Source of the DNA: Bolinopsis microptera
Taxonomy: Eukaryota; Ctenophora; Tentaculata; Lobata; Bolinopsidae
Reading direction: 5' to 3'
Assembly (NCBI RefSeq): GCF_026151205.1
Contig: NW_026971798.1
Span: 1 to 48,537 of the forward strand
Length of the DNA: 48,537 nucleotides
Numbering within the stretch: position 1 is the stretch's first letter; every line of letters starts with the position of its first letter. Of the stretch, positions 25,801 through 47,244 are shown piece after piece. The translations under genes were made by a program, and so were the position numbers. The notes under the pieces are model-generated. The model made no database searches. It was not told the origin of the DNA and saw only the letters and a program-made list of their open reading frames with translations.

Positions 25801-28608
25801 GAGCAGTCCAAAAGGCTTGGAGGGGCTTCTGGGTAGAAGGGTGGCCGGTTAAACATGTTGTGGGGGGTGGTCAGTCCCCTGTTTCGTTTGTTTTGGTTTT
25901 TTGTTTCTGCACGTGGTTTGTGCAACCTTATATAAGATAAGTTTTTTTTTTTTTGCATCACTGTCGTAGGCCCATCCAATTCAAAGTGGGCGGGTAGAAA
26001 TAACCGAAGGGCCCGGCTGACCCCCCCACCCTGGTTAACTGCAACGTTTACGGCGCCCAACCTTCATCTGGCATCAAAGTTTCTTGGCTAGCCATGTTAT
26101 TTAACGGGTTTGTAAATTTTTTTTTTGGTTGTTTAGTAAACCTAAGGTGTTCAAAATCAAATCTGGTTGGGAAGACGGAACCGGAGAACCCCGAACCGCT
26201 AAAATAAAAAAAAACCACGAGAACTCCAGTGTTTTTGCCTGTGGTGAGAAGGAAAAAACCCCCTCCGGGCATAGTACGGGATGACCCCCCCCCTTCTAAT
26301 TGTGGGGGGCGCACTAATCCTGAAAATTTAAGGAATTGGAATAAAGTTTGTTAGTTCGAAAACGGCCCCCTGGAGAGCGGGATCTACCATTATAACCATA
26401 CGACCCGCGGCTCTAATTAAATAATTGGAGATTAATAGGAAAGACACCCGGCCAAAAAATAATTTTATTTAACAAATTTGTTTTCTTTTATCATTATGGG
26501 GAACTTGATTGATAAATTAAGGGCACCTCAGGGAAAGTAACATAGAAGAAACCCGGGTTCTGAAGCGGGGGCGTCAAATGAACTTTTTTACAAAATTCCT
26601 TAACAAGGTTTTTTAGCAGTTATATTAAAGGTTATTTTAAAAAAAGAATTAAGTAAAGTGGGTTGTAATATTTTATTTGATTAAGTTTTTTAAACTTGTT
26701 GGAATTTCACAAGTTTATTTATGTTCAGGTTCCCTCTTCCCTTTTTTTTGAGTGGAGGAAAGTTGGCTTTTGCTACTTGGAACCCAGCCACAAAGCGCTA
26801 AGTGGTTACAAATTCCGAATTAAAGGAGGGGGGACTAACCGTATATACCTGCTATTTATTTTTATCATCGTTATCCCTTGGGGGTTTACTGTCTACAACA
26901 ACAGAATGCATTCAGAAAATTGAGAATTAAATTAAATGTCTTGTGGTACCCCCCCCATGGTAAAAAACCTTGTTGTGTCCCACCCCCCCCCCTTTGTTTT
27001 TAGTTTTTCTTGTTTAAAACTTTAATTTTTGTGGTTTTCTGTTGAACTGGCGTTGTGGCCCTTCGCATTTTTAAGGGTTTTATCCTACTTATTTGGGGTT
27101 TTTATTTTTGAGTATGGCCAACAAAATTTTCTAAAACCCAATATCAGCGGATAAGAAAAATCCAGACGATTTTAGAAGTCACTCCAACTTTTTTTTTTAC
27201 ATTTTCTACCGGGCCCCAAAGTCAGTGGACAGCAGAATCTTGTTTTGGCCCCAATGGTGGGAGATAAGCAGTTGACACAATTCCCCTACACTAAGTTTTT
27301 ACTAATTTAATTTTTGTACTTCTATTAGGTTTTTAGCTAAAAATCTAAAGTAAAAACGTTTTAAAAATTGGTGAAAACTGGACCATGACCCCTAATGATT
27401 AATGGTGACACAATACTGATCGCCTAAATAAAGGGGCAAAACAGTGGAAAAGTTTTTACAAGTGGTGCCTTCAAATGGAATGAAATTTTCTTCCCGTTAT
27501 GTTCGGTTTTTTTGTTTTCCAGTCGGGTTGGTCTTAGGCATAAATATGTTTTTTGAAAATGCCCCTTGTAATATAATTAAGAGCAGATTTATACTCCATG
27601 TAAGCCTATATTGTCTATTGAAAGCGTGGAAATTATTGAATCATAGAGAATGAATGGCCCCCCCAAAGAGTTTTGAAAATGCCTTCTTGATAAGGGTAAC
27701 CAGGTGGTCGTTTTTTTTTGTTCAAATAGGCGGTTGAGTTGCCCCAGCTGCTTCCCCCGGCCCACTACACTTTAGGAATTTTTGGTGGAAACTGGTGGAA
27801 CTGCAAAAATCCCACCCTCGATTCCCAATGTACGCCTGAGGGGAAACGGTTATTTCCCCCATATTTCTGGGGCCCATATTTGCTGCAAAATCTTTTTGCA
27901 GACACATTCCTATTATTTCCCCACCCCTTGGGTTAACCCCCACAAATTTCCCGTCATTCCCTTTACCCCACAATGACCCTTTTTTCCTTCGACTGAATTT
28001 GTTCCCCACATTTGGACAGTTTCCTCCGTTTTTTTCTTGTTTTGAATAATTTTTTTGATTAACTTTTTAAACGCCCGAAATATGAGGGGTTGGGGATAAT
28101 CTGTACTGTGTACCCTGGTCCTGGTTAGTTTGAAGTACACGAAAAAGGTATGATAAAAAAGTTTTTTGGGGGGTTGGAACCTTGCCGTCTCCAATGAAAG
28201 CACAAAGGGTTTTTAATTGCCTTAAAAAAAAACCTGTCCCCGGGGACCTTCAATAAAAGTGGCCCCCCCTTTATAAAAAATATCCGTATATGTGTTAATT
28301 GGCCCCTTTATCAGCAACGTTGAAACTTATTGTTTGGCCCCCCCCATTTTATAATTGTTGGAAAAAATGGATTCCATTTTGTGGGTTTTGTTTTGGATGA
28401 ATTGTTCCAATGTTACGGTCCCACCCAATCTCTTGTTTTAAACAGGACGCAATTTTTTATCTTGGATCCTCCTCCCGAAAATCCCTAAATAGTATGATTT
28501 TTGTTTACTGTGATTTCCGACTTAAAGGGAGCCCTTTAAATCCCACCTTTTTGATGCACATTCCACAATTAATACTAAAAATCAAATTTTCCCTTTAGAG
28601 CCCGAGGA
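22859..28608. other. Noisy sequence, no gene recognised
   Basis: Indel-rich sequence with numerous homopolymers. Frames of up to about 100 codons are phenylalanine-, glycine- or lysine-rich and lack domain signatures. No structured RNA or clear repeat array was seen. Confidence 0.55.
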
Positions 28609-35983: not shown

Positions 35984-36829
35984 CCAGGGACCGGGCAAGC
36001 AAAGCCTGTCCGGACCAAGTAAATCTTCAGCCCAGCGTCCAAGTGAATTTCCCCTGAAAAGATATCAAGTCCACCACCACGTGTTATCCCCTCTATATTA
36101 TCCGCGGGCCTAATCCTGCGCCGGATAACTGTTTCAACTACCCCCTACAAACATATTTTGTCCCCCCCCCTTAACTGGAAAGATTATTCATCCGAGGAAA
36201 ACGTCACCGTAAATTGTACTTTTGACCCACCTCCCTGGTTGTACCACCCCATAGTTTTTTACCATGGATGGTCACCCGGGGGGGTTGATCCCTTGCCCGT
36301 TGTTTATTTTTTGTTTGGGCCAGAAAATTCAGGCGACACGGTGATTAGTTGTTTATGTTTTCTACCCAAAGAAAAGCTGCTTTTGGGAATAAAAGGAAAT
36401 GTTCATTATGGTTTTAGCCTACTAAAAATTCCTTTCTGTCTCCGAGGGTGTTCGCAGGGTCCACAACTTTTAAAGCAAATCCCTAAACACAAAAGTCCCT
36501 TCATGTGAAACCCTTAACTCGTCCTTTCCCCGGCCCCCCCCAACCAGAGGCAGCCCATTTCTCTAAAAAACCTCTCAAACTCAACGCCTCCCCGCCGCCA
36601 ACAACCATGGGAAAAATTTAATCCCCTCTTGTTCGCCTGCGTATTAAAACCCTAAGTTTTGAAGGTTTGATTCCTGAGCCCACGTGAAATTATATCCATT
36701 TTCAGGGTTTGGTAGGTCCGTAATCGACAAGACTGGTTCCCACCCCGCCTGTCCCGGATAGTTTTACACAGCGCCTTTCCAGAGCCATGAAATCTTTTTG
36801 GATTTGGGGGTTCCCCGGCCATTTTGCAG
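35984..36829. other. Transition from noisy to clean sequence
   Basis: Homopolymer inflation continues to about 36.6 kb and fades toward 36.8 kb, where the first clean exon begins. Upstream exons of the EF-hand gene may lie here but cannot be read. The 116-codon frame at 36158-36508 has no recognisable domain. Confidence 0.5.
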
Positions 36830-37104: not shown

Positions 37105-37248
37105 GTCTTTAGATAAAGACGAGACAGGCTGCGTGCCGTACTCTGACTTCAAGAACATCATGTCAGACTACGGGTTACAGATTCCAGGTCCACAACATGA
37201 GGATGACGTTGTTAATTATGTGGATTATCTCAACTCTGTCGCCCTTCT
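37105..37248 (+). CDS. EF-hand protein, exon B with calcium-binding loop
   Basis: Bounded by TTCAG and GTGAGT. It is 144 bases long and joins exon A in phase to give NFRSLDKDETGCVPYSDFK. The 12-residue loop DKDETGCVPYSD has Asp at positions 1 and 3, Thr at 5, Gly at 6, Val at 8 and Asp at 12 (Glu is more usual at 12), followed by a helix (FKNIM). This is a near-canonical EF-hand. The rest of the exon (HEDDVVNYVDYLNSVAL) resembles the second, loop-poor half found in multi-EF-hand animal proteins. Calcium binding is expected from the family. The specific protein cannot be named; an EFCAB-type protein is a guess. Confidence 0.75.
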
Positions 37249-37438
37249 GTGAGTATCAGTTGATCGTAATTCGTATATTTCTCTTGGTTATCTTTTGTGC
37301 GGTCAAAATTTCCAGTGACTGATAGTCATTTCAAAAGGATTTGTCTTTTTCATTTTGATTAAAACTAAAGCGTTAAAATTAAACGCAGTAAAAACTATGT
37401 AAATATTGATATTACCGTAACTAAAATCTGTTTTTCAG

Positions 37439-37499
37439 ACCTCCGGAAACTCCAGCTACTAGAGAGAAAACACGACCACAGACCGCTCCTCCAGCCATG
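37439..37499 (+). CDS. EF-hand protein, exon C (linker), ending at the repeat array
   Basis: CTGTTTTTCAG precedes the exon. The first A completes a Leu codon from exon B, and 20 codons follow: a Pro/Thr-rich linker (PPETPATREKTRPQTAPPAM). The likely donor is CCATG|GTAACT, which leaves phase 0. The donor sequence is also the core of the 45-base array that begins here. If the donor is not used, the frame continues for 12 codons into the first repeat and stops at TAA (37533-37535), making this the last exon. Both readings are possible. Confidence 0.6.
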
Positions 37500-40400
37500 G
37501 TAACTAGCACTACATTACTTTATCAGCCATGGTAACTAGCCATGGTAACTAGCACTACATTACTTTATCAGCCATGGTAACTAGCCATGGTAACTAGCAC
37601 TACATTACTTTATCAGCCATGGTAACTCCAGCCATGGTAACAAGCACTACATTACTTTATCAACCATGGTAACTAGCCATGGTAACTAGCACTACATTAC
37701 TTTATCAACCATGGTAACTAGCCATAGTAACTAGCACTACATTACTTTATCAGCCATGGTAACTAGCCATGGTAAATAGCACTACATTACTTTATCAGCC
37801 ATGGTAACTAGCCATGGTAACTAGCACTACATTACTTTATCAGCCATGGTAACTAGCCATGGTAACTAGCACTACATTACTTTATCAGCCATGGTAACTA
37901 GCCATGGTAACTAGCACTACATTACTTTATCAGCCATGGTAACTAGCCATGGTAACTAGCACTACATTACTTTATCAGCCATGGTAACTAGCCATGGTAA
38001 CTAGCACTACATTACTTTATCAGCCATGGTAACTAGCCATGGTAACTAGCCATGGTAACTAGCACTACATTACTTTATCAGCCATGGTAACTAGCCATGG
38101 TAACTCCAGCCATGGTAACTAGCACTACATTACTTTATCAGCCATGGTAACTAGCCATAGTAACTAGCACTACATTACTTTATCAGCCATGGTAACTAGC
38201 CATAGTAACTAGCACTACATTACTTTATCAGCCATGGTAACTAGCCATAGTAACTAGCACTACATTACTTTATCAGCCATGGTAACTAGCCATGGTAACT
38301 CCAGCCATGGTAACTAGCACTACATTACTTTATCAGCCATGGTAACTAGCCATGGTAACTCCAGCCATGGTAACTAGCACTACATTACTTTATCAGCCAT
38401 GGTAACTAGCCATGGTAACTAGCACTACATTACTTTATCAGCCATGGTAACTAGCCATGGTAACTAGCACCACATTACTTTATCAGCCATGGTAACTAGC
38501 CATGGTAACTAGCCATGGTAACTAGACTAAATTACTTTATCAGCCATGGTAACTCCAGCCATGGTAACTAGCACTACATTACTTTATCAGCCATGGTTAC
38601 TAGCCATGGTAACTAGCACTATATTACTTTATCAGCCATGGTAACTAGCCATGGTAACTAGCCATGGTAACTAGCCATGGTAACTAGCCATGGTAACTCC
38701 AGCCATGGTAACTAGCACTACATTACTTTATCAGCCATGGTAACTAGCACTACATTACTTTATCAGCCATGGTAACTCCAGCCATGATAACTAGCACTAC
38801 ATTACTTTATCAGCCAGGTAACTAGCCATGGTAAATAGCACTACATTACTTTATCAGCCATGGTAACTAGCCATGGTAACTAGCACTACATTACTTTATC
38901 AGCCATGGTAACTAGCCATGGTAAATAGCACTACATTACTTTATCAGCCATGGTAACTAGCCATGGTAACTGGCACTACATTACTTTATTAGCCATGGTA
39001 ACTAGCCATGGTTACCAGCCATGGTAACTAGCACTACATTACTTTTTCAGCCATGGTAACTAGCCATGGTAACTAGCACTACATTACTTTATCAGCCATG
39101 GTAACTAGCCATGGTAACTAGCACTACATTACTTTATCAGCCATGGTAACTAGCCATGGTAACTAGCACTACATTACTTTATCAGCCAGGTAACTAGCCA
39201 TGGTAAATAGCACTACATTACTTTATCGGCCATGGTAACTAGCCATGGTAACTAGCACTACATTACTTTATCAGCCATGGTAACTAGCCATGGTAACTAG
39301 CACTACATTACTTTATCAGCCATGGTAACTAGCCATGGTAACTAGCACTACATTACTTTATCAGCCAGGTAACTAGCCATGGTAACTAGCACTACATTAC
39401 TTTATCAGCCATGGTAACTAGCCATGGTAACTAGCACTACATTACTTTATCAGCCATGGTAACTAGCCATGGTAACTAGCACTACATTACTTTATCAGCC
39501 ATGGTAACTAGCCATGGTAACTAGCCATGGTAACTCCAGCCATGGTAACTAGCACTACATTACTTTATCAGCCATGGTTACTAGCCATGGTAACTAGCTA
39601 TGGTAACTAGCACTACATTACTTTATCAGCCATAGTTACTAGCCATGGTAACTAGCACTACATTACTTTATCAGCCATGGTTACTAGCCATGGTAACTAG
39701 CACTACATTACTTTATCAGCCATGGTAACTAGCCATGGTAACTAGCACTACATTACTTTATCAGCCATGGTAACTAGCCATGGTAACTAGCACTACATTA
39801 CTCTATCAGCCATGGTTACTAGCCATGGTAACTAGCACTACATTACTTTATCAGCCACGGTAACTAGCCATGGTAACTAGCACTACATTACTTTATCAGC
39901 CATGGTAACTAGCCATGGTAACTAGCACTACATTACTTTATCAGCCATGGTTACTAGCCATGGTAACTAGCTATGGTAACTAGCACTACATTACTTTATC
40001 AGCCATGGTAACTAGCCATGGTAACTAGCACTACATTACTTTATCAGCCATGGTTACTAGCCATGGTAACTAGCTATGGTAACTAGCACTACATTACTTT
40101 ATCAGCCATGGTAACTAGCCATGGTAACTAGCACTACATTACTTTATCAGCCATGGTAACTAGCCATGGTAACTAGCACTACATTACTTTATCAGCCAGG
40201 TAACTAGCCATGGTAACTAGCACTACATTACTCTATCAGCCATGGTAACTAGCCATGGTAACTAGCACTACATTACTTTATCAGCCATGGTTACTAGCCA
40301 TGGTAACTAGCTATGGTAACTAGCACTACATTACTTTATCAGCCATGGTTACTAGCCATGGTAAATAGCACTACATTACTTTATCAGCCATGGTAACTAG

Positions 40401-43400
40401 CCATGGTAACTAGCACTACATTACTTTATCAGCCATGGTAACTAGCCATGGTAACTAGCCATGGTAACTAGCACTACATTACTTTATCAGCCATGGTAAC
40501 TAGCCATGGTAACTAGCACTACATTACTTTATCAGCCATGGTAACTAGCCATGGTAACTAGCACTACATTACTTTATCAGCCATGGTTACTAGCCATGGT
40601 AACTAGCCATGGTAACTAGCACTACATTACTTTATCAGCCATGGTAACTAGCCATGGTAACTAGCACTACATTACTTTATCAGCCAGGTAACTAGCCATG
40701 GTAACTAGCACTACATTACTTTATCAGCCATGGTAACTAGCCATAGTAACTAGCACTACATTACTTTATCAGCCATGGTAACTAGCCATGGTAACTAGCA
40801 CTACATTACTTTATCAGCCATGGTTACTAGCCATGGTAAATAGCACTACATTACTTTATCAGCCATGGTAACTAGCCATGGTAACTAGCACTACATTACT
40901 TTATCAGCCATGGTAACTAGCCATGGTAACTAGCACTACATTACTTTATCAGCCATGGTAACTAGCCATGGTAACTAGCACTACATTACTTTATCAGCCA
41001 TGGTAACTAGCCATGGTAACTAGCCATGGTAACTAGCACTACATTACTTTATCAGCCATGGTAACTAGCCATGGTAACTAGCCATGGTAACTCCAGCCAT
41101 GATAACTAGCACTACATTACATTATCAGCCAGGTAACTAGCCATGGTAACTAGCACTACATTACTCTATCAGCCATGGTAACTAGCCATGGTAACTAGCA
41201 CTACATTACTTTATCAGCCATGGTTACTAGCCATGGTAACTAGCCATGGTAACTAGCACTACATTACTTTATCAGCCATGGTAACTAGCCATGGTAACTA
41301 GCACTAAATTACTTTATCAGCCATGGTAACTAGCCATGGTAACTAGCACATTATTACTTTATCAGCCATGGTAACTAGCCATGGTAACTAGCCATGGTAA
41401 CTCCAGCCATGATAACTAGCACTACATTACTTTATCAGCCAGGTAACTAGCCATGGTAACTAGCACTACATTACTCTATCAGCCATGGTAACTAGCCATG
41501 GTAACTAGCACTACATTACTTTATCAGCCATGGTTACTAGCCATGGTAACTAGCTATGGTAACTAGCACTACATTACTTTATCAGCCATGGTTACTAGCC
41601 ATGGTAACTCCAGCCATGATAACTAGCACTACATTACTTTATCAGCCATGGTTACTAGCCATGGTAACTCCAGCCATGGTAACTAGCACTACATTACTTT
41701 ATCAGCCATGGTTACTAGCCATGGTAACTCCAGCCATGATAACTAGCACTACATTACTTTATCAGCCATGGTTACTAGCCATGGTAACTAGCACTACATT
41801 ACTTTATCAGCCATGGTAACTAGCCATGGTAACTAGCACTACATTACTTTATCAGCCATGGTAACTAGCCATGGTAACTAGCACTACATTACTTTATCAG
41901 CCATGGTAACTAGCCATGGTAACTCCAGCCATGGTAACTAGCACTACATTACTTTATCAGCCATGGTTACTAGCCATGGTAACTAGCACTACATTACTTT
42001 ATCAGCCATGGTAACTAGCCATGGTAACTAGCCATGGTAACTAGCACTACATTACTTTATCAGCCATGGTAACTAGCCATGGTAACTCCAGCCATGGTAA
42101 CTAGCACTACATTACTTTATCAGCCATGGTTACTAGCCATGGTAACTAGCCATGGTAACTAGCACTACATTACTTTATCAGCCATGGTTACTAGCCATGG
42201 TAACTCCAGCCATGGTAACTAGCACTACATTACTTTATCAGCCATGGTAACTAGCCATGGTAACTAGCACTACATTACTTTATCAGCCATGGTAACTAGC
42301 CATGGTAACTAGCACTACATTACTTTATCAGCCATGGTAACTAGCCATGGTAACTAGCCATGGTAACTCCAGCCATGGTAACTAGCACTACATTACTTTA
42401 TCAGCCATGGTTACTAGCCATGGTAACTAGCCATGGTAACTAGCACTACATTACTTTATCAGCCATGGTTACTAGCCATGGTAACTCCAGCCATGGTAAC
42501 TAGCACTACATTACTTTATCAGCCATGGTTACTAGCCATGGTAACTAGCACTACATTACTTTATCAGCCATGGTAACTAGCCATGGTAACTAGCACTACA
42601 TTACTTTATCAGCCATGGTAACTAGCCATGGTAACTAGCACTACATTACTTTATCAGCCATGGTAACTAGCCATGGTAACTAGCAATACATTACTTTATC
42701 AGCCATGGTAACTAGCCATGGTAACTAGCACTACATTACTTTATCAGCCATGGTAACTAGCCATGGTAACTAGCACTACATTACTTTATCAGCCATGGTA
42801 ACTAGCCATGGTAACTAGCCATGGTAACTAGCCATGGTAACTAGCCATGGTAACTAGCCATGGTAACTAGCACTACATTACTTTATCAGCCATGGTAACT
42901 AGCCATGGTAACTAGCACTACATTACTTTATCAGCCATGGTAACTAGCCATGGTAACTCCAGCCATGGTAACTTCAGCCATGGTAACTAGCACTACATTA
43001 CTTTATCAGCCATGGTAACTAGCCATGGTAACTAGCACTACATTACTTTATCAGCCATGGTAACTAGCCATGGTAACTAGCCATGGTAACTAGCACTACA
43101 TTACTTTATCAGCCATGGTAACTAGCCATGGTAACTAGCACTACATTACTTTATCAGCCATGGTAACTAGCCATGGTAACTAGCCATGGTAAATAGCACT
43201 ACATTACTTTATCAGCCATGGTAACTAGCCATGGTAACTAGCACTACATTACTTTATCAGCCATGGTAACTAGCCATAGTAACTAGCACTACATTACTTT
43301 ATCAGCCATGGTAACTAGCCATGGTAACTAGCACTACATTACTTTATCAGCCATGGTAACTAGCCATGGTAACTAGCACTACATTACTTTATCAGCCATG

Positions 43401-43424
43401 GTAACTAGCCATGGTAACTAGAAT
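37494..43424. repeat. Large minisatellite, 45-base unit, about 5.9 kb
   Basis: The main unit is a 32-base block (CTAGCACTACATTACTTTAT then CAGCCATGGTAA) plus a 13-base block CTAGCCATGGTAA. Variants add extra 13-base blocks or a 15-base CTCCAGCCATGGTAA block. Length corresponds to roughly 125 to 130 units. Recurrent point variants are GGTTAC for GGTAAC, CCATAG for CCATGG, TAAATAG for TAACTAG and CCAGGTAA lacking two bases. The array begins at the 3' end of exon C and every unit repeats that junction's GCCATGGTAACTAG. A short frame at 41556-41819 stays open only where the GGTTAC variant removes the stop. Confidence 0.95.
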
Positions 43425-43862
43425 AAATTACTTTATTACTGTTTTATCCCGTTTTACCGACCATCAAAACCTTGGTGATCCCAATTTCATGTAGCTGTCA
43501 AGTAACTTCACATTACCTGCACACCTGCAGCAGGTTGAAAAATAATGAATTAGTTGTGGTGGTAAACACGCGGTATTGTAGTCGTCATGGTAACCTGTTG
43601 TGAGAGTGCTGCACTGACAAGCTGCTGCTTCCTTCGTGGGAAGATGTTCGAGATCTCGCATTTTAACCAATCAGGGCTGATGATGAGGATCACGTTACTT
43701 ACCGACAGCCAATCAGATGATTTGTTGGTCTTCTCTGATTTATTAGTACAGCTGGACTGGAGATAGTGCAGTTTGAATAGTTTCAATTAAGACAGCGGAC
43801 GCTGAGTGCGAAAACTTGTGCACTGAGCTACTGTTGTCTCGTTGTTTTGACTCTGCAAAGCC
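43425..43862. other. Spacer after the array; possible promoter and 5' UTR
   Basis: Unique, clean sequence without a convincing open frame. It includes two CCAATCAG motifs and a stretch leading into an ATG in strong context. Short - strand frames (43464-43786) have no recognisable similarity. Confidence 0.4.
43667..43716 (+). promoter_or_regulatory. Two CCAAT boxes
   Basis: CCAATCAG occurs at 43667-43674 and again at 43709-43716, in the same orientation and 42 bases apart, about 150 to 195 bases upstream of the ATG at 43863. Paired CCAAT boxes (NF-Y sites) are typical of TATA-less animal promoters. No TATA box is seen. Promoter function is inferred from motif and position. Confidence 0.45.
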
Positions 43863-43886
43863 ATGGCTTTCTTGCACTTGACTAAG
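43863..43886 (+). CDS. Possible first coding exon (MAFLHLTK)
   Basis: GCAAAGCCATGG gives an optimal translation-start context. Eight codons follow and end AAG|GTATAC, a plausible donor, in phase 0. This phase matches the exon at 44650, giving MAFLHLTK joined to ALSHAY. It could be an alternative first exon of the EF-hand gene or the start of a separate gene. The evidence is only start context, phase and the upstream CCAAT boxes. Confidence 0.4.
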
Positions 43887-44548
43887 GTATACCAGTCTCT
43901 TCCACACCTCTACAATTTCAATCTATTTTCTAGAAATATTAACGTTTTCTTCAATGATCATTATTATCAGTGCTGCAAAGGAAGTGTTAACTGACTCGCG
44001 TTCGTATTGATTTTAAAATTAAATGAATTTCCGCTTTGCTATTCTTCGGGGCATTGAAATTGAAATGAATTTAAAGGTCCTTTGTGAGAAAAGCCTGGAG
44101 GGTGTACCCACTTATGTACATTATACATAGAATTATGCGCCTGCATGGTACATCATGATATCCTAAACCAATAAAATCATAATGATTCCTGTGATACGAA
44201 AACTTTCTAAAAGTTGATGGCATGCATTCAATGCTCTTGCGGGTAATTTGAATTTGGGACGTTGGGAGGTCGATTTGTTATCAACTCTTGTTTAGTTACG
44301 GTCTTATTTGCTGATTAGAATTAAGTAAGCTGGCTGTCATACCCATATTACCCAAGCAGTCACAAATCTGAACTTTTTATAAATACAATCCTCCCCCTGT
44401 GGTGTCCTAATTTACGGAGTGGATGAAAATTTTTGAGCGCTGTTCTTTCAAATCAACCAAGTTCAAAAGATTGTGTGGGGTCATTAATCATAACATTCAA
44501 TCGTTATCAATTGTCAATTAAAAGATTTTAAATGATGGCCCTACATCG

Positions 44549-44650
44549 CTCCGTTAAAGTTTATGAACCCTATATCTGCAGGCGTTGTTAAAGTTTATGA
44601 ACCCTATATCTGCAGGCGTCGTTAAAGTTTATGAACCCTATATCTGCAGG
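44549..44650 (+). repeat. Three tandem 34-base copies of a splice acceptor region
   Basis: Copies at 44549-44582, 44583-44616 and 44617-44650 share GTTAAAGTTTATGAACCC followed by TATATCTGCAGG. They differ only in the first few bases. Each copy carries the same CTGCAG|G acceptor, so three equivalent candidate 3' splice sites lie in tandem, and the last one abuts the coding exon. Confidence 0.9.
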
Positions 44651-44784
44651 CGTTGTCCCACGCTTACACGACAGCGGAGGAGGACCCTGACATGCAGTTT
44701 CAACAGCTGAGTTTGAACCTGCAACCGGTTCACAAGGATCCGAGACATAAGGCTCTTGTTAAGATTGAGAACTGTAAACTTCTG
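44650..44784 (+). CDS. Coding exon D, degenerate EF-hand-like
   Basis: Acceptor CTGCAG and donor CTG|GTAAGA enclose 135 bases (45 codons), open in one frame, beginning ALSHAYTTAEEDPDMQF. The end, DPRHKALVKIENCKLL, lines up with the calcium loop of exon B (Asp at 1, Val at 8, then a hydrophobic helix), but the other ligands are missing, so it would be a non-binding EF-hand. Entry phase 0 fits both exon C (37499) and the ATG exon at 43863. I favour it as part of the EF-hand gene, but a separate small gene is possible. Confidence 0.55.
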
Positions 44785-44809
44785 GTAAGATATTTGCTGT
44801 CGGCACTTA

Positions 44810-44941
44810 TACAGCATGTTTACTGCATGTTTACCAGCATGTTTACAGCATGTTAACAGCATGTTTACAGCATGTTTACAGCATGTTTACAGCATGTTTA
44901 CAGCATGTTTACAGCATGTTTACAGCATGTTTACAGCATGG
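44810..44941 (+). repeat. Tandem repeat, 11-base unit TTTACAGCATG
   Basis: About eleven units, nearly identical toward the right end, begin some 25 bases after the donor of exon D. Each contains TTTACAG, which resembles a 3' splice acceptor. Confidence 0.9.
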
Positions 44942-44990
44942 ATATTAGCATTTTAGAAGACAATTAGGTGACATCCTGTTTTTTTATTAG

Positions 44991-45075
44991 TTCTCATAAA
45001 GCATAGATTTATCAAGCGTGTAAAAACTAAACAGTCATATAGCTGCAACAAATTAAAAACAATTAATCAACAAAT
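44991..45075 (+). other. Possible terminal exon with ATTAAA polyadenylation signal
   Basis: TTTTTTTATTAG at the 44990 boundary is a fair acceptor. In phase with exon D it adds Phe-Ser and then a TAA stop (44997-44999), and ATTAAA at 45052-45057 could be the polyadenylation signal. This would end the + strand gene just before the 3' end of the convergent dehydrogenase gene. There is no coding conservation to support it. Confidence 0.25.
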
Positions 45076-45289
45076 TCACTAAATCACGATTTTACTAGAT
45101 TAGATGAAACAGGAATAGAAGTTTATAAGCTGAATTCAAAAGAAATATTTACGAGTATATTTACCAATACAAAATTTAAACAAAAAGAATCATTTAAAAA
45201 TCTAAATTTTCTACTTGAACGATCAACTGTTTCTTTAACACGGAGAATGTTCTGGAGCCACATAACTGCTACTGTTACAGAGAAGCTTA

Positions 45290-47244
45290 TTATTTGGTCG
45301 TCTCCAGACTCTTTTTGATATCCAGCACGTACCTGACCGCCGCACTGTTGTTGTCCTGAAGCTCAGTGTATATTTTATTCAGCTGCCCTGCTTCTACAAG
45401 CTCTATGTCCGGGTATATCTCGTTTTTAAAGCAGAAATCGACCACCTCCTGCGTGGCGGGGATTCCGCCGATCAGAGAACCAGCAATGGATATCCTCTTC
45501 AATATTAGCATAAACTGATTGTATTGCATGGGTGCTGCAATGCAGCCCAGTTGGACGAGAGTACCGTCAGTCTTCAGCATGGAGATGTACGGAGCTATGT
45601 CGTGTGGAGCGGAGACAGTGTTAATGATCAGGTCTAACTTTCCTCGCTCCTTCCTCACTGAGTCAGCATCTTTGGACACCACATAATCCTCCGCTCCTTT
45701 AGATTTTGCTACATCGATCTTCTTGTCGCTGCTGGAAATGGCCACAACTCGGTGTCCCAGAGCGGCCGCTAACTTGATGCCCATTGTGCCCAGTCCCCCG
45801 ATCCCGACTATCCCGATATTCAGCTTCTTTTCCGTGTTTGTTGCTCCCCAGTGATTCAGTGGAGACCACATTGTGATCCCTGCACACAGGATAGGTCCTG
45901 CCTTTTCCAGTGGCATCCCCTCTGGTATCTTGATTATGAAGTGTTCGTGGACCACGTCAAACTCAGAGTAACCTCCCCAGTTCTGTACCTCCGGGTTTCC
46001 TCCTATGTGGCAGTTTTCCTGTGGTATATGAACATAATAAAGATAGCATACATTTGTATTGCGCTCAAGAATAATTTAAAGAAAAGTTTCAATTTGACAT
46101 TTTTGTAACACAAAAAAGAAAAGCCCACCTTCTTCTTAGGAGTATTGTAAGTGTGTGTAAAGCCATTAACACAGTAGCACTCCTCACCCCTGTGACACAC
46201 CTCACAGATCAGGCAGCTATCCCTGATGCAACCCACCCCCACATTGTCCCCCACCTTTACTCGGCTCACTTTCTCTCCCACCTCCACCACTGTCCCCACC
46301 AACTCGTGACCCGGTACAATTGGGTACGTTGATCCTGGCAAGTAATAGTGGGTTAAGAACTTGTTGGAACACGGTAAGTAGTAGTGGGTTAAGAACTTGT
46401 TGGAACACGGTAAGTAGTAGTGGGTTAAGAACTTGTTGGAACACGGTAAGTAGTAGTGGGTTAAGAACTTGTTGGAACACGGTAAGTAGTAGTGGGTTAA
46501 GAACTTGTTGGAACACGGTAGTAGTAGTGGGTTAAGAACTTGTTGGAACACGGTAAGTAGTAGTGGGTTAAGAACTTGTTGGAACACGGTAAGTAGTAGT
46601 GGGTTAAGAACTTGTTGGAACACGGTAAGTAGTAGTGGGTTAAGAACTTGTTGGAACACGGTAAGTAGTAGTGGGTTAAGAACTTGTTGGAACACGGTAA
46701 GTAGTAGTGGGTTAAGAACTTGTTGGAACACGGTAAGTAGTAGTGGGTTAAGAACTTGTTGGAACACGGTAAGTAGTAGTGGGTTAAGAACTTGTTGGAA
46801 CACGGTAAGTAGTAGTGGGTTAAGAACTTGTTGGAACACGGTAAGTAGTAGTGGGTTAAGAACTTGTTGGAACACGGTAAGTAGTAGTGGGTTAAGAACT
46901 TGTTGGAACACGGTAAGTAGTAGTGGGTTAAGAACTTGTTGGAACATGGCACACAACACGGTTCACAAAATGTATATTTAATTGCCATAAAGATAACAAT
47001 CATCAATCATCTTACCCCATTTTTCAGACATCTCATTGAGCACATTGTGGACATCAGAATGACAAATTCCACAGAACTTTAGCTCGAACTTGACATCGTG
47101 GAGGCCTACTTGAGGCCGGTAGATAGTTAACTGTTTGAAACTCTCCCCACACTGGTCCACACCCCACGCTGTGACCGGGTACTCAGTGTCCAGGGGCGCC
47201 GGGATCGGCTTGTGGACTGCTATGTCAGGGTTACTGAACTTCAT
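45290..47244 (-). CDS. Zinc-dependent alcohol dehydrogenase, cinnamyl-alcohol-dehydrogenase type
   Basis: Three exons on the - strand, 47244-47016, 46334-46129 and 46018-45290 (229, 206 and 729 bases), with introns GTAAGA...CCAG and GTGGGC...CACAG. They join in frame to 387 residues. The family reduces aldehydes and oxidises alcohols with NADP(H), usually in the cytosol. Catalytic zinc ligands are visible as Cys61 (CGICHSD), His86 with Glu87 (PGHE) and Cys190 (LCAGIT). Structural zinc ligands are Cys117, Cys120, Cys123 and Cys131. The Rossmann motif GIGGLG is at 217-222, and SSSDKK at 240-245 fits NADP(H) preference. The family usually has 340-380 residues; this one has about twelve extra residues around 143-158, at the exon 2/3 junction. 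The ATG at 47244 has A at -3 and gives the normal N-terminus (AWGVD at 26-30). No stop or frameshift interrupts it, so it looks functional. Its physiological substrate is not known. Confidence 0.92.
46339..46947. repeat. Minisatellite of 17 units of 36 bases in dehydrogenase intron 1
   Basis: The + strand unit begins GTAAGTAGTAGTGGGTTAAG and ends AACTTGTTGGAACACG. There are 17 copies, almost identical; one near 46520 lacks a single A. The array ends about four bases before the acceptor of exon 2, and the last unit itself forms the acceptor region. The unit is a multiple of three, so frames stay open on both strands (recurring FQQVLNPLLLTV on -, SSGLRTCWNTV on +). These are translations of the repeat, not proteins. 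Confidence 0.95.

Follow-up and report, generated by a model that had tools for sequence, protein, structure and literature searches.

Mirage-like minisatellites at predicted splice junctions in the ctenophore Bolinopsis microptera

Four tandem arrays and their exon borders

The window analysed here is an entire unplaced contig of the ctenophore Bolinopsis microptera (NW_026971798.1, 48,537 bp; designated C39), in which four tandem arrays lie on or near the borders of exons of an EF-hand-like gene region on one strand and a zinc alcohol dehydrogenase gene on the other. The arrays had been reported in a first-pass annotation of the contig, and both their existence and their placement are borne out by Tandem Repeats Finder (TRF). 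The assembly comprises 264.65 Mb, with 97.5% of the bases in the 13 largest contigs (15-26 Mb) and the next contig at 198 kb; 13 chromosome-scale scaffolds accounting for 97.23% of the assembly are described in PMC10232365. Junctions were scored with position weight matrices trained on introns of the same genome. The features are as follows (window coordinates; a slash marks a junction; C5 is the contig with the counterpart of this region).

37105-37248 (left end approximate), plus strand: exon B of the EF-hand-like gene; open frame; donor TCT/GTGAGT; differs from C5 at 2 of 144 bases
37439-37499, plus strand: exon C; acceptor score 7.1; donor ATG/GTAACT, score 6.5, GT at 37500
37493-43436, plus strand: 45-bp minisatellite (TRF), starting within exon C and covering its final 7 bases
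43863-43886, plus strand: possible alternative first exon encoding MAFLHLTK, inferred only; donor AAG/GTATAC, score 5.1; identical to C5 (0 of 24 bases differ)
44553-44656, plus strand: 34-bp array, 3.1 copies (TRF), with the acceptor TATATCTGCAG/GCGTT in each copy
44650-44784, plus strand: exon D; open frame; acceptor score 7.3, donor score 8.2 (GT at 44785)
44810-44940, plus strand: 11-bp array of TACAGCATGTT, 11.8 copies (TRF), beginning 25 bp past the exon D donor, which is not included
45290-46018, minus strand: exon 3 of a zinc alcohol dehydrogenase of the cinnamyl-alcohol-dehydrogenase type, by homology
46129-46334, minus strand: dehydrogenase exon 2, by homology; exon start 46334
46340-46946, minus strand: 36-bp array, 16.9 copies (TRF), occupying most of dehydrogenase intron 1 and ending 5 bp before exon 2
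47016-47244, minus strand: coding part of dehydrogenase exon 1; ATG at 47244, exon end 47016

Homology establishes the dehydrogenase exons: the exon model yields a protein of 387 amino acids that matches 1uuf (E 2.1e-89) and aligns with solved relatives from end to end, with no insert at the junction. Exons C and D are predicted exons without homologs, supported by splice signals, an uninterrupted reading frame and few differences between the haplotypes; a Pfam search with the exon D translation gave no match. The Pfam match of exon B to EF-hand_6 (E 0.00081, 19.4 bits) falls under the 25-bit cut-off, and the candidate MAFLHLTK exon has the same phase as exon D.

Two of the arrays sit on junctions and carry the splice signal in the repeat unit. 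The donor of exon C is the first among many identical donors in the 45-bp array, where the motif CCATG/GTAACT (CCATGGTAACT) has 225 exact matches, compared to 98 on C5. The 34-bp array contains three identical acceptors at intervals of 34 bp, which would place exon starts at 44582, 44616 and 44650; the last acceptor is that of exon D. The unit of the 36-bp array is a copy of the stretch immediately upstream of the AG, with the AG itself outside the unit. The earlier claim that the repeat unit holds the splice signal at two junctions is confirmed (donor in the 45-bp array, acceptor in the 34-bp array). The other two arrays lie beside a junction, with a gap of 5 bp between the 36-bp array and exon 2 and of 25 bp between the exon D donor and the 11-bp array. 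When each array is slid within its own intron, the 34-bp array has a 0.02 chance of falling within 30 bp of a junction and the 45-bp array a 0.11 chance; the value is 0.03-0.32 for the 11-bp array (the range reflects the unplaced next exon) and 0.92 for the 36-bp array because the latter occupies 607 of the 681 intron bases. The four arrays, which were chosen post hoc, differ in informativeness.

The counterpart locus and haplotype differences

The window aligns from 36.8 kb to approximately 48.06 kb with C5:12424985-12434769 at 94-99% identity. Since this is the only other long match, C39 appears to represent one haplotype of a locus whose other version is on the chromosome-size contig C5. 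Between positions 28015 and 36826, identity to C5 is mostly 65-67%, with about 30% gap columns, and it rises abruptly to 97% at 36823; the 28.0-36.8 kb part of the window looks like poor, unpolished sequence of the long-read type rather than a different locus.

Counterparts of all four arrays are present on C5, and copy number is clearly unlike for three of them. In addition to the donor motif of the 45-bp array (225 in the window and 98 on C5), this applies to the acceptor copies of the 34-bp array (3 and 7, respectively) and the core of the 36-bp array (17 and 26; 16.9 and 27.9 by TRF). The exception is the 11-bp array (11 core copies in each; 11.8 and 13.0 by TRF). The exons diverge less than their surroundings: one of 61 bases differs in exon C and one of 130 aligned bases, a synonymous change, in exon D, versus 87 of 1880 in non-exon DNA; all compared exons pooled differ at 28 of 1517 bases (Fisher p 6e-6 against non-exon DNA; the exon bounds used in these counts are 1-3 bases off the final model).

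Further arrays are found in the C5 flanks, beyond the range of the first-pass annotation. A 42-bp array of 3 copies starts at the donor CG/GTAAGT, and a 32-bp array of 7 copies ends at TTTGCAG/GG ahead of a last exon that is EF-hand-like. The two exons concerned have no match in a Pfam search and are predicted from signals and frame. For two additional C5 arrays (13-bp and 43-bp units), no junction could be placed. Opposite window position 37397, C5 carries a 1.56-kb insertion that is missing from the window; it lies at a TA and has near-identical inverted-repeat ends of about 60 bp (CAGGGTGGCCC...), which suggests a mariner-like element polymorphic between the haplotypes.

Arrays in kinesin introns and enrichment near junctions

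Arrays that carry a splice junction were also identified in seven kinesin introns. The most expanded, at C12:14428274, has about 52 copies of a 33-bp unit that follow the exon end ...TATAAACACATCACTCAGCGAACTTG/GTAAGT; the unit contains the last 26 exon bases, encoding the conserved INTSLSELG, and GTAAGT. The C2:22511844 intron contains about 26 copies of a 49-bp unit with the acceptor CAG and the exon start coding for FSFIDLAGS, and a second acceptor array is present at C13:6734959 (21 bp, 24 copies). The remaining arrays carry donors: C2:22504384 (35 bp, 25 copies), C2:16577963 (53 bp, 8 copies), C5:9864314 (53 bp, 2 copies) and C13:6732404 (38 bp, 2 copies). All seven extend 11-30 bases into the exon. 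The copied exon parts are kinesin coding sequence that continues properly across the junction, and therefore the exon edge must be what was copied, with the array growing inside the intron. At C12:14833418, a 13-bp array of 21.7 copies starts exactly at the donor.

Several other arrays were observed in and around these genes. In the kinesin intron at C2:22505928, a pair of 35-bp arrays (19.5 and 18.7 copies) stand head to head and together form an inverted repeat whose arms measure about 0.65 kb. A dynein intron (C4:10056029) holds an array with 86 copies of a 26-bp unit that stops 1 bp before the acceptor and, like the 36-bp array of the window, repeats the stretch preceding the AG. Downstream of a kinesin motor domain, C6:12412000-12418918 contains 89 tandem copies of a 34-bp unit, with long runs of G.

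Enrichment was assessed on introns picked irrespective of repeats, between neighbouring exon matches of conserved domains (Myosin_head, Kinesin, DHC_N2, Pkinase, SNF2, UCH, ABC_membrane and PI3/4-kinase). For Pkinase and UCH, the introns came from 16 of 136 and 30 of 45 rows, respectively; the 12 introns of the ABC and PI3K families were hand-picked, with one ABC intron and duplicate loci omitted and the overlap rule relaxed for two. Altogether 185 introns were read and 166 exactly resolved (137/147, 17/26 and 12/12); 4 near-duplicate introns, 1 unfetched intron and the unresolved ones (10/147 and 9/26) were excluded before counting. Thresholds of at least 100 for the TRF score and at least 10 for the period leave 34 arrays, distributed over 26 introns. 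Under the null model, each array is slid inside its own intron with up to 40 (or 20) exon bases allowed. The pooled p-values span several thresholds and overlap settings, among which the 30-bp test is the one named beforehand, and arrays within one gene are not independent.

In the pool with 40 exon bases allowed, 16 of the 34 arrays are no more than 30 bp from a junction (9.31 expected, p=0.0015) and 12 no more than 10 bp (6.77 expected, p=0.011); seven carry a junction (5.18 expected, p=0.23). With 20 exon bases allowed, the respective expectations drop to 8.04 (p=0.00013), 4.99 (p=0.0004) and 3.06 (p=0.02). This excess is driven by the kinesins (56 introns, 18 arrays), in which 11 arrays are within 30 bp (4.99 expected, p=0.0004) and 7 carry a junction (2.74 expected, p=0.0065). 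The other families (110 introns, 16 arrays) show no excess, with 5 arrays within 30 bp (4.32 expected, p=0.43) and no junction-carrying arrays (2.44 expected). The difference in junction-carrying arrays between kinesins (7/18) and the other families (0/16) has a Fisher p of 0.008. In the small set of SNF2 and UCH introns, neither of the two arrays with a score of at least 100 is close to a junction; the single such array in the small ABC and PI3K set is within 30 bp. Eight random 10-kb pieces, out of 12 preset, contain splice-like motifs in 3 of 18 array units (4.7 expected), that is, no excess in a comparison of low power. The enrichment of arrays within about 30 bases of splice sites that had been named in advance as the test thus holds for the pool and fails outside the kinesins: it is not general in this sample, and the signal comes from kinesin genes.

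Relation to lancelet mirages and possible origins of the arrays

The 45-bp and 34-bp arrays of the window and the seven kinesin arrays share the anatomy of the lancelet mirages, as judged from sequence. Mirages have been described in the genes for Adh3, globins BflGb6 and BflGb9, troponin C and PGBD5 as minisatellite-like tandem copies of the 5' or 3' exon-intron border, many units of which contain AG/GT signals; haplotypes differ in copy number, Adh3 units range from 10 to 72 bp, splicing is regular by RT-PCR, and somatic instability is reported for Adh3 (PMC3087553, PMC3902484). The arrays described here similarly include units that span the exon-intron border together with the splice site, and those of the window, with the exception of the 11-bp array, vary in copy number between haplotypes. 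They differ in that the 36-bp and 11-bp arrays adjoin junctions, in their size, with as many as 52 copies in one kinesin intron and 225 donor motifs in the window's 45-bp array, and in that their regular splicing is a prediction, whereas that of mirages has been shown by RT-PCR. The host is a ctenophore rather than a cephalochordate, although the host taxon is not part of the definition of a mirage.

Other known systems are less similar. Where introns are gained through internal tandem duplication of AG/GT proto-splice sites (work by Rogers and later authors, cited in PMC3087553), the duplicated segment likewise includes splice-like signals, but a new intron is created inside an exon, whereas here a pre-existing intron would only lengthen. 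The variable internal tandem repeats of human paralogs are variable minisatellites with units of about 30 bp that alter gene structure; units spanning splice sites are not mentioned in the parts of that study consulted (PMC2812944). In the Hormiphora genome, tandem repeats make up 13%, and the sections consulted do not mention junction-spanning arrays (PMC8527503). Our literature search found no report of junction-spanning minisatellites in ctenophores and reports of mirages only from lancelets.

We favour the interpretation, to which we assign a probability of about 0.72, that these are junction-spanning minisatellites of the mirage kind, produced by ordinary tandem duplication across a junction and tolerated thereafter. 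Copies of the exon edge and the splice site, the location of the array on the intron side and the unlike copy number of the two haplotypes are directly observed. A short tandem duplication, through replication slippage or unequal exchange, would by chance take in an exon edge and its splice site. The spliceosome would still use the exon-proximal site, leaving mRNA and protein unaffected, and the array could then expand and contract neutrally within the intron. Provided that the outermost site is used, a duplication across the junction would leave the exon intact in either direction of growth, whereas one deeper inside the exon would alter the protein; such one-sided tolerance would explain why the arrays reach only 11-30 bases into exons. 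Junction-adjacent arrays that lack the signal, such as the 36-bp and 11-bp arrays, would result from the same process if the breakpoint fell just within the intron, and those preceding the AG (the 36-bp array and the 86-copy dynein array) may have arisen where the breakpoint was displaced by a few bases.

The presence of this anatomy in a comb jelly suggests repeated origin of junction-spanning minisatellites in animals with large, variable genomes. The arrays might serve as natural experiments on the choice of the spliceosome among dozens of identical sites and may give rise to new exons and introns.

Several points weigh against the duplication-and-tolerance interpretation. Arrays near junctions exceed random placement (16/34 compared to 9.3 expected), which pure indifference would not yield, and the excess is limited to kinesin genes. 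The signal positions are invariant in three of the four large kinesin arrays, while other positions vary (chance about 0.1 by hand arithmetic), and the identity of the spliced copy is itself inferred.

The pooled and kinesin excesses within 30 bp (p=0.0015 and p=0.0004, respectively) are what would be expected if a mutational mechanism, such as R-loops or replication stalling where exons meet introns in transcribed genes, favoured splice junctions and raised the rate of duplication there. A 21.9-kb stretch of C5, in which 6 of 8 arrays above the same TRF thresholds are at or near a proposed junction, points in the same direction, but this stretch was selected on account of the finding. Furthermore, the non-kinesin introns are flat (5/16 compared to 4.32 expected; none carrying compared to 2.44), the random 80 kb show no motif excess, and nothing links the arrays to R-loops; this mechanism is therefore unlikely. 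A broader form, in which a recurrent border-favouring process in ctenophores, or in a gene class such as kinesins, amplifies splice-junction DNA into rapidly changing arrays with 20-200 tandem splice sites and thereby continually furnishes material from which new exons and introns could form, is conceivable but doubtful.

Selection that maintains repeated splice signals, by securing splicing or making length variants, would be compatible with the invariant signal positions in the kinesin arrays, but the majority of all unit positions in these arrays are likewise invariant. Only 4 of the 12 junction arrays have a unit length divisible by 3, matching chance, and therefore the reading frame is not being preserved for splicing at inner sites. 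In the 45-bp array, the donor block is more variable than the spacer in the window (0.0152 versus 0.0085 per base) and less variable on C5 (0.0216 versus 0.0539), with no consistent pattern. Together with the large haplotype swings in copy number, these observations make selection very unlikely. The first-pass annotation had offered a local mechanism amplifying splice-junction DNA and selection for repeated splice signals as its two explanations; its interpretation is partly supported overall, but neither explanation is shown here. Neutral duplication would account for the anatomy.

That long-read consensus created or inflated the arrays is suggested by the low identity (65-67%) and many gaps over much of the first 36.8 kb of the contig, but all four arrays fall within the 94-99% part and are present again on a separate contig, so that an artefact is highly improbable, even if exact copy numbers may be off. 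Introners, that is, dispersed copies in many genes whose repeated sequence carries the splice sites (PMC9860276), or another dispersed element inserted at junctions with its own splice sites, resemble the arrays in this one respect, but they can be practically dismissed given that the arrays are local and tandem and the units of the 12 junction arrays are gene-specific and contain host coding sequence, with only weak relatives (63-67%) of the 45-bp array at two other places, on C3 and C7.

The 45-bp unit also includes CCATGGTAAC, which occurs 225 times in the window between 37505 and 43436 and resembles a half-site of the RFX X-box; a search of the array for the full X-box palindrome found none. 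The looser motif CCATRGYAAC occurs 7 times in the 80 kb of random sequence (L091-L098), compared to 1.0 expected.

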